Shown here piece after piece: positions 29,435 to 29,985 of a stretch of DNA of 44,527 bases. The DNA is from Ignavibacteria bacterium. GTDB lineage: Bacteria; Bacteroidota; Ignavibacteria; Tepidaquicellales; OLB5. A program made the position numbers and the translations under genes. How positions within the stretch are numbered: the first letter of the stretch is position 1; each line of letters begins with the position of its first letter. The stretch covers positions 1 through 44,527 of the forward strand of contig JANWKI010000091.1 of NCBI GenBank assembly GCA_025451455.1. The letters run 5' to 3'. The notes below the pieces were generated by a model that was not told the DNA's origin, did no database searches, and saw only the letters and a program-made list of their open reading frames with translations.

Positions 29435-29551
29435 CATATCTGCATAATTTTTATCTATATATATCATAACATTACCTATTAGTACAAAGGGGACTATTGG
29501 GTTCAGGGGCAAGCATTTCTTATTTGACCCACAGGGGCGTGCACCAAAGAT

Positions 29552-29699
29552 GAAATGTAAACATTTCGCCCTTGCTATATTCCAATGGCATATGTATATT
29601 TGTATATTATGCCAAAGGCATAAGTGCTGAACATGCCCCCTAAGGGGCTCTTTCTATTATCACGTATCATCTTCTACAAACATATGGCCCCTGCGGGGC
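29552..29699. repeat. Cluster of short perfect hairpins (REP/MITE-like)
   Basis: This lies in a 688-bp gene-free stretch (29319-30006). Perfect stems are GAAATG-TAAA-CATTTC (29552-29567), TTATGCC-AAA-GGCATAA (29607-29623), GCCCC-CTAA-GGGGC (29635-29648) and GCCCC-TGC-GGGGC (29687-29699). TGGCATA at 29586-29592 can also pair with TATGCCA at 29608-29614. No sustained reading frame crosses the region. It may be a decayed repetitive element; no transposase is present. Confidence 0.55.
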
Positions 29700-29735
29700 A
29701 GGAAAGAATAGTCAGCATACTGGAGGGTATCATTA

Positions 29736-29924
29736 TTGTCCGGCTGTTGGATTTTAAAAATGAACGGCTGGAATCATGAGTAAATTGTTTGATTCTGCGC
29801 TGATTTGCTGTCCAGTTGTTCGATCTCAAAATGAACAGCCGGAAACATGGTTATATTTATTGATTCTGAGCTGAAATTGCAGTCCAGCGTTTGATCGATG
29901 AAAAACATGCGAACAGCCGGACAA
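29736..29924. repeat. Imperfect 72-bp tandem repeat bounded by perfect 13-bp inverted repeats
   Basis: TTGTCCGGCTGTT at 29736-29748 is the exact reverse complement of AACAGCCGGACAA at 29912-29924. Inside are two diverged 72-bp units (29737-29808 and 29809-29880) and part of a third (from 29881). Each unit begins GTCC(G/A)G and has a GAAC(G/A)GC(T/C)GGA block about 25 nt later, so each can also fold into its own GU-tolerant hairpin. The first two units share a TTGATTCTG(C/A)GCTGA stretch. Confidence 0.7.
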
Positions 29925-29977
29925 CCGATTTGAGTATTAACGGGATAATTTGCAGTTTTTGAGGATTTTGCTTTATC

Positions 29978-29985
29978 TATATTTG
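29978..29985 (+). promoter_or_regulatory. TAnnTTTG box upstream of the YyaL-type gene
   Basis: TATATTTG, 21 nt before the ATG at 30007. A TTTG lies 16 nt further upstream (29958-29961), shorter than the usual 19-21 nt spacing. Confidence 0.4.

Follow-up and report, generated by a model that had tools for sequence, protein, structure and literature searches.

In the window (the whole 44,527-nt stretch of DNA analysed here), a 189-bp array of repeats at 29736-29924 ends 82 bp ahead of the ATG (30007) of a yyaL-like gene. As an earlier note on this DNA had said, putting the distance at about 80 bp, no annotated feature explains the array, and no Rfam family fits it. What is this seemingly idle intergenic repeat, and is it a complete feature? 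Comparison with the genome from which the window comes (G000, 2.3 Mb, 64% complete) and with its relatives ties the array to a putative phage-derived repressor and to a particle gene cluster fixed throughout this genus of uncultured bacteria. Together these appear to form a new genus-wide regulon of species-specific palindrome arrays, predicted to be under a CI-like repressor linked to the GTA-like cluster; a cursory literature search found no description of this regulon, or of a GTA in Ignavibacteria.

The array and its copies in the same genome

The earlier note had described two 72-bp units and a partial third, closed by perfect 13-bp inverted repeats. The arms at 29736-29748 and 29912-29924 are indeed exact reverse complements (13/13), and the window contains six exact inverted pairs of 13-mers no more than 300 bp apart, with 13-mers nested in a single arm counted one by one, versus 0, 1, 0, 0, 0, 0, 0, 1, 0 and 3 in ten Markov simulations. 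They are not special closing repeats, being two copies of the motif that ends every stem-loop. The motif GTCCGGCTGTT occurs five times with at most one mismatch, versus 0.23 occurrences expected.

The two units and the partial third are three like palindromic stem-loops with TCC[A/G]G...C[C/T]GGA ends and AT-rich linkers between them, assigned to neither strand. In stem-loop 1 (29739-29772) all ten checked positions pair, two of them as G-U; in stem-loop 2 (29811-29843) nine of ten positions pair; stem-loop 3 (29883-29921) is of a terminal type. The repeats themselves are real, while their register is 71/72 bp rather than 72: a direct repeat of 47 nt with 81% identity has a start-to-start spacing of 71. 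Both strands of the array fold better than shuffled sequences (z -4.24 and -4.08).

A search for further copies, which the earlier note had proposed, found diverged ones dispersed in G000: five other places at E<=0.001 with the 189 bp as query and, after pattern and follow-up searches, a family of seven array copies and one remnant. The family comprises the window (contig C91), contigs C79, C68, C49, C47, C52 and C94, which carry related arrays, and C118, and it yields 19 stem-loop matches, one overlapping another. A 226-bp copy compared with 98 relatives gave no array match; its sole match, in G007, is the promoter described below. Copies C68 (L003) and C49 (L036) have the long leader GTGCGGGTGTTCAGAATGTAAAGTCTGTAAAA in common and are thus recent duplicates of each other or of one source.

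Dispersed intergenic clusters of imperfect palindromes are also characteristic of REP/BIME sequences with RAYT, and a REP-type cluster was among the identities suggested by the earlier note. Unlike REP/BIME, however, the units own a repressor-type promoter, and the motif is found at none of the four loci of G000 that match Y1-type (RAYT-like) transposases (L267-L270 on C39, C145, C104 and C122), which makes this identity unlikely.

A promoter with a double dyad and its putative repressor

The array is one half of a small transcription unit. The feature is incomplete at 29736-29924: the unit, of which the array is only the 3' part, also includes a promoter-operator region (29564-29623) and a short tail behind the array; the extent given in the earlier note thus covers a real array and is too short. 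The tail (29925-29945, CCGATTTGAGTAT..) is, by eye, common to copy C52. The promoter TTGCTA-17-TATATT (29572-29600) sits about 110 bp upstream of the array, with its -35 hexamer TTGCTA at 29572-29577 and its -10 hexamer TATATT at 29595-29600, both on the plus strand. It carries two 15-bp dyads of the TATGCN5GCATA type: putative operator dyad 1 (TATTCCAATGGCATA, 29578-29592, either strand) lies within the -35/-10 spacer, a position constant in all 22 promoters of our alignment A1, and putative operator dyad 2 (TATGCCAAAGGCATA, 29608-29622, either strand) lies 30 bp further on, at the likely start point. Model R1 matches the window at 29564-29623 (E 2.2e-11), the window promoter being one of the 22 sequences that build the model. 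The leader from operator to array (29623-29735, plus strand) is poorly conserved among the copies. Two GC-rich palindromes lie in it, CCCCTAAGGGG at 29635-29648 and GGCCCCTGCGGGGC at 29686-29699, and comparable ones occur near other copies and units. The earlier note had correctly placed the array next to a promoter; the repressor type of this promoter and the regulon had gone unnoticed.

All eight units of G000, several of which are degenerate, have TTG.. followed after about 17 bp by TATATT, with one dyad between the boxes and a second 30-32 bp on. The exact sequence TATGCN5GCATA occurs nine times in G000 (control 0): eight times at the unit family (C52 has two exact dyads, while the dyads of C49 are imperfect) and once inside a dnaE-like ORF. 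R1 finds nine places in this genome: eight are the units, and the ninth is a repressor gene's operator region. Every array copy found in the 64% complete assembly belongs to the promoter-unit family.

The exact dyad was found 130 times in 12 relatives of the same genus (G001-G012) versus 17 for the control; in 29 less closely related genomes, from the same family or order, the counts were 94 and 44. R1 was applied to G000-G009 within the genus, with 150 candidates scored per genome, and found 5, 12, 11, 2, 12, 7, 1, 20 and 18 places in G001-G009, respectively. The total is 97 places in ten genomes of the genus (G000 included) versus one weak match in six order-level relatives, five of which have none; this restriction is partly by construction, since several of the scanned genomes (the training sequences come from G000, G002, G003, G005, G008 and G009) supplied model sequences. 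The count of exact dyads does not depend on R1, and the R1 counts and the dyad and repressor surveys agree that the operator is largely limited to genomes having a close repressor. In G008 the evenness of promoter spacing is no different from random (10 + 8 sites). One viral contig (L271) contains the promoter core; it belongs to an AT-rich phage and has one dyad only, and was taken as a chance match.

The candidate repressor is an XRE-S24 protein with an ortholog in all 13 genomes of the genus, 74-100% identical. Its domain matches (Peptidase_S24, 2.1e-8, for the G000 protein; phrog_4, 2e-16, for the G002 protein) class it as a predicted CI/LexA-like repressor, and a cleavage site (AEC-G), GDSM and NAK were picked out by eye. 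In all nine genus loci examined (G000, G002, G003, G004, G007, G008, G009, G010 and G012) a double dyad matching at least 16 of 20 positions lies between this gene and divergent terminase genes. Since the units and the repressor's own promoter region have these sites in common, we infer that the repressor binds the dyads of the units.

The cluster beside the repressor contains terS, terL, portal, capsid, tail-like and endolysin genes in G008 and G009, and terS, terL, portal, capsid and endolysin are conserved at a single locus across the genus (the cluster and repressor loci are L120/L266 on C105 of G000, L121, L264 and L265). Its TerS belongs to phrog_309. Capsid identity is 89-97% among the genomes where it is readable, that of terS only 33-47%. 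No integrase or phage replication gene was seen by eye among the cluster ORFs listed in G008 and G009 (10 G008 ORFs scanned), and neither repressor nor capsid was met in viral contigs scanned non-exhaustively with a few short peptide patterns. Judged from its genes, the cluster appears to be GTA-like. In G000 it is largely deleted: the terL match covers residues 15-71 of 450 only, and the genes after this fragment resemble the far-end genes of the intact cluster.

H300 genes and the arrays of relatives

In the relatives the same promoter leads either to a gene of about 300 aa with tandem HTH units (H300) followed by a palindrome array, or to an array directly. Of 88 same-genus R1 matches outside G000, 71 rows were compared, representing 70 distinct units (L089 and L167 are one site; the stub rows L165 and L166 were excluded). 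An H300 gene or its remnant lies behind the promoter in nine rows; the remaining units are mostly non-coding over several hundred bases, and some promoters (for example, G003_L215 and G004_L223) have no recognisable array or H300 gene.

H300 homologs are present in ten of the 12 relatives and in G013, and were not detected in G003, G011 and the 64% complete G000. The double dyad precedes 13 of the 25 H300-like ORFs. In twelve of these it matches at least 18 of 20 positions, while in the thirteenth (L244) the promoter lies inside the called start; the other twelve ORFs have no double dyad. By eye, no array of a known class was seen downstream of L241, L246 and L244, three H300 genes that have the promoter. 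A second H300-like subfamily (L230, L232, L233, L238, L242, L243 and L248) has the same N-terminal and a different C-terminal part and lacks the double operator; three of its members, L243, L248 and L242, are associated with a promoter-like sequence that contains a single perfect dyad.

The AlphaFold model of H300 shows an N-terminal pair of three-helix HTH-like units (mean pLDDT 72.8, pTM 0.27). The protein has no curated-level match in Pfam, including Phage_rep_O, or in PHROG, and no Foldseek match at E<=0.001. Profile comparison gave one weak hit, PDB 2lvs (E 7.5e-4), an HTH protein that binds CRISPR repeats. Domain searches showed no catalytic transposase domain in H300, no helicase loader was seen beside its gene, and a few short peptide patterns, searched non-exhaustively, found no H300 in viral contigs or phage records.

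The array behind H300 genes starts in, at or past the 3' end of the gene, and its sequence varies among species. In the same genome the H300-linked array matched array-only units in 9 of 9 cases in G002, 7 of 10 in G005, 7 of 14 in G009 and 6 of 14 in G008, whereas two H300a arrays matched none of the array-only units of their own genome. The half-sites TTCTCANNATGAA and TTCATNNTGAGAA occur 76, 65 and 38 times in the units of G002, G005 and G008, respectively, versus 5.7, 6.8 and 7.0 times in shuffles. Two half-sites make up the palindrome TTCTCANNATGA, of which the same three genomes have 9, 13 and 2 copies, respectively, and G000, G009 and the controls none; by hand comparison all 24 palindromes lie downstream of an R1 promoter, within 1.6 kb, some of these units having an H300 gene or remnant in between. 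One shared locus is promoter-H300a-array in G002 and G008 and promoter-array without the gene in G001. By eye, stem-loop 3 of the window resembles the arrays behind H300a of G002 and G008 and that of the array-only unit G001_L218; by BLAST the arrays of the window and G000 match H300 arrays weakly, at best with 66% identity over 111 nt (E 8e-5, to G009).

Two further observations concern single genomes. In G008 another array class (L176, L177 and L178), for which no H300 gene was identified, consists of GTCTCA/TGAGAC repeats, both direct and inverted, that surround a conserved middle part, and in G009 the stretch behind the promoter L209 has exceptionally good folding scores on both strands (z -11.2 and -11.8).

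The good folding raises the question of whether the units act as RNA. A strong promoter is directed into the array, and in 62 array rows the mean folding z-score of the transcribed strand is -2.56, compared with -0.74 for downstream stretches (rows long enough) and -0.07 for the rows with H300. This would be accounted for if the units made, under control of the repressor, a structured non-coding RNA that acts as a sponge or as antisense RNA. However, the opposite strand folds equally well (-2.49), the relatives have 30 wobble-keeping changes for the transcribed strand versus 28 of the opposite kind (the site L089/L167 is counted twice in the folding set and once in the wobble and array-matching comparisons), and the stem-loops of G000 have 13 G-U versus 10 A-C. 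The 2-nt spacers in the palindromes of the relatives pair at 28 of 100 positions, which is about chance, and the Rfam scan of the window gave no match above the gathering threshold. Since neither folding nor wobble changes have a strand bias and the spacers pair at about chance, the data speak more for DNA palindromes that bind a protein than for an RNA fold under selection, and we consider a regulatory RNA quite improbable. For the folded RNA suggested by the earlier note there is no strand-specific wobble signal.

Repressor-controlled short genes are far less probable still. Read by hand, five copies (C68, C49, C52, C94 and C79) contain a frame of the kind MSGCWILKRITGHMGKLFNFELKLQSGCWRMKINRTAG that stays open, preceded in several of them by a box rich in purines, as if the units encoded repeat peptides of about 40 aa with a TTG start after the Shine-Dalgarno-like AAAGGAGG. 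Yet the window copy, with its 71-bp unit, has a stop after 15 codons and C47 one after 13, C94 and C79 start with CTG, and the arrays of other species are unrelated in sequence, with shifting frames (also read by hand). Coding as the main reading of the array was rejected, given open frames in some copies only.

While the regulon and the anatomy of the units are well supported, their function can be proposed tentatively, and the explanation that we prefer is possible rather than probable: the units of G000 would be H300-less copies of a phage-type module, the array being an iteron-like binding site of H300 and perhaps a replication origin. The repressor would bind the dyads and keep the units silent until its inactivation, probably through RecA-stimulated self-cleavage. 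H300 would then bind the array palindromes as iterons, and the array would act as a replication start of the phage type, like lambda O/ori. For this it would need H300, whether encoded in cis or in trans, and also transcription that starts at the promoter under repressor control.

Dispersed phage-type origins are favoured because the order of parts recalls lambda pR-O-ori and because there is a precedent in Bartonella. In layout, the CI-type repressed promoter, the gene of a DNA-binding protein of about 300 aa and the palindromic repeats at its 3' end are like the lambda region, and a promoter plus sites without the gene makes sense if the protein acts in trans. According to PMC3985674, O binds four 19-bp iterons in ori-lambda, and transcription is required at the origin even when O and P come in trans; the latter would explain why array-only units retain the promoter. 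Unlike in lambda, the array lies at or behind the 3' end of the gene and not in its middle, there are many dispersed chromosomal copies and not one in a phage, Pfam and PHROG show no homology of H300 to O, and no P-like loader was seen. The failing membership in the O family weakens the claim that the array is a lambda origin, not that it works like one. As a class, the arrays are not distinguished by an AT-rich minimum (AT content 0.61-0.63 at 130-310 nt, 0.57-0.64 beyond). Counting against the origin reading, G000 keeps eight units despite no detectable H300 and a mostly lost cluster.

In Bartonella, as reported in PMC2697382 and PMC3610622, a conserved origin that derives from a phage and contains palindromic repeats lies beside the GTA, and the amplified DNA is packaged. 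The BaGTA system described there resembles ours in its fixed-locus capsid/portal/terminase cluster and in palindromic repeats of phage origin proposed as an origin, and differs in having one region near the GTA, whereas here, as read from sequence, up to about 20 dispersed promoters would be tied to the cluster by one operator. If many dispersed origins fired, chromosomal DNA would be amplified for the GTA-like cluster, which would answer to the same repressor. In its widest form, which we regard as doubtful, the proposal is that the genus has made a phage switch into a system for amplifying the entire genome. Phage-type origins, or packaging starts, dispersed in up to about 20 places and controlled by the repressor, would each carry iterons that differ between species and fit the resident H300. 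They would fire together with the fixed GTA-like cluster, and the whole chromosome, not a single region, would be amplified and carried to other cells.

The alternative link to the particles is packaging. Palindrome arrays are usual at pac/cos-like packaging sites, and the arrays might be such sites, with H300 as an alternative small terminase that steers the particle terminase to them. The operator common to the units and to the terS-terL operon would fit, and the weak, non-significant Foldseek list of H300 includes the small terminase of phage G20c. But the cluster already owns a TerS, H300 matches no TerS family, a pac site needs no repressed promoter of its own, and G000 retains the arrays though most of terL, portal and capsid is lost. 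We therefore hold packaging sites to be unlikely.

If the arrays are phage-type origins, as we tentatively prefer, DNA copying may begin at the units, and virus-like particles could move the copied DNA between cells. Bartonella would then be joined by a second case in which phage-type replication is coupled to a GTA, here distributed over the genome. Even otherwise, arrays that vary among species under one unchanged operator raise the question of how a protein and the DNA sites that it binds come to be replaced jointly.

The window copy upstream of yyaL

The dispersed, diverged copies could also be those of a selfish element, and the earlier note had considered a MITE-like one. A non-autonomous insertion with a phage operator-promoter, spread by some enzyme, would be consistent with the existence of versions with and without H300 and with the local history of the window copy. 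The best dyad pairs upstream of yyaL match at most 13 of 20 positions in eight same-genus relatives (G002-G009; in G003, 84 nt were available), versus 19 of 20 in G000, so that the unit is absent there. The blocks TATCTATATA and CTATATTTG are 26 bp apart in five relatives with a contiguous site (G003, G005, G006, G007 and G008) and 525 bp apart in G000; hence about 0.5 kb was gained in the G000 lineage or lost in the others. This stretch, missing from the relatives, is flanked by an 11-bp direct repeat, TTTATCTATAT, with its left copy at 29450-29460 and its right copy at 29972-29982, adjoining the native yyaL promoter block CTATATTTG (both without strand). The repeat at the junctions is a possible target duplication; none is claimed, because the native site already contains part of it (CTATAT twice).

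Like MITEs, the units are short, non-coding and multi-copy and carry inverted repeats. Unlike MITEs, they have no terminal repeats at the unit ends, no proven target duplication and, in the 64% complete genome, no related transposase. The shared promoter lies outside the 13-bp arms, and no duplication abuts the 189 bp: the search for a target-site duplication, also proposed in the earlier note, found none beside these arms, and the 11-bp repeat flanks the larger stretch. Moreover, H300 has no catalytic transposase domain, and some unit positions are shared by several species and must be old, since the same gene, lpxC, carries units upstream in four of them (G002, G003, G005 and G008). The MITE identity is thus unlikely, and we give a selfish element of this kind about as little credence as a regulatory RNA. 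As the particle cluster is largely deleted in G000 and the available 64% of the genome yielded no H300, the window copy is probably a decaying relic.
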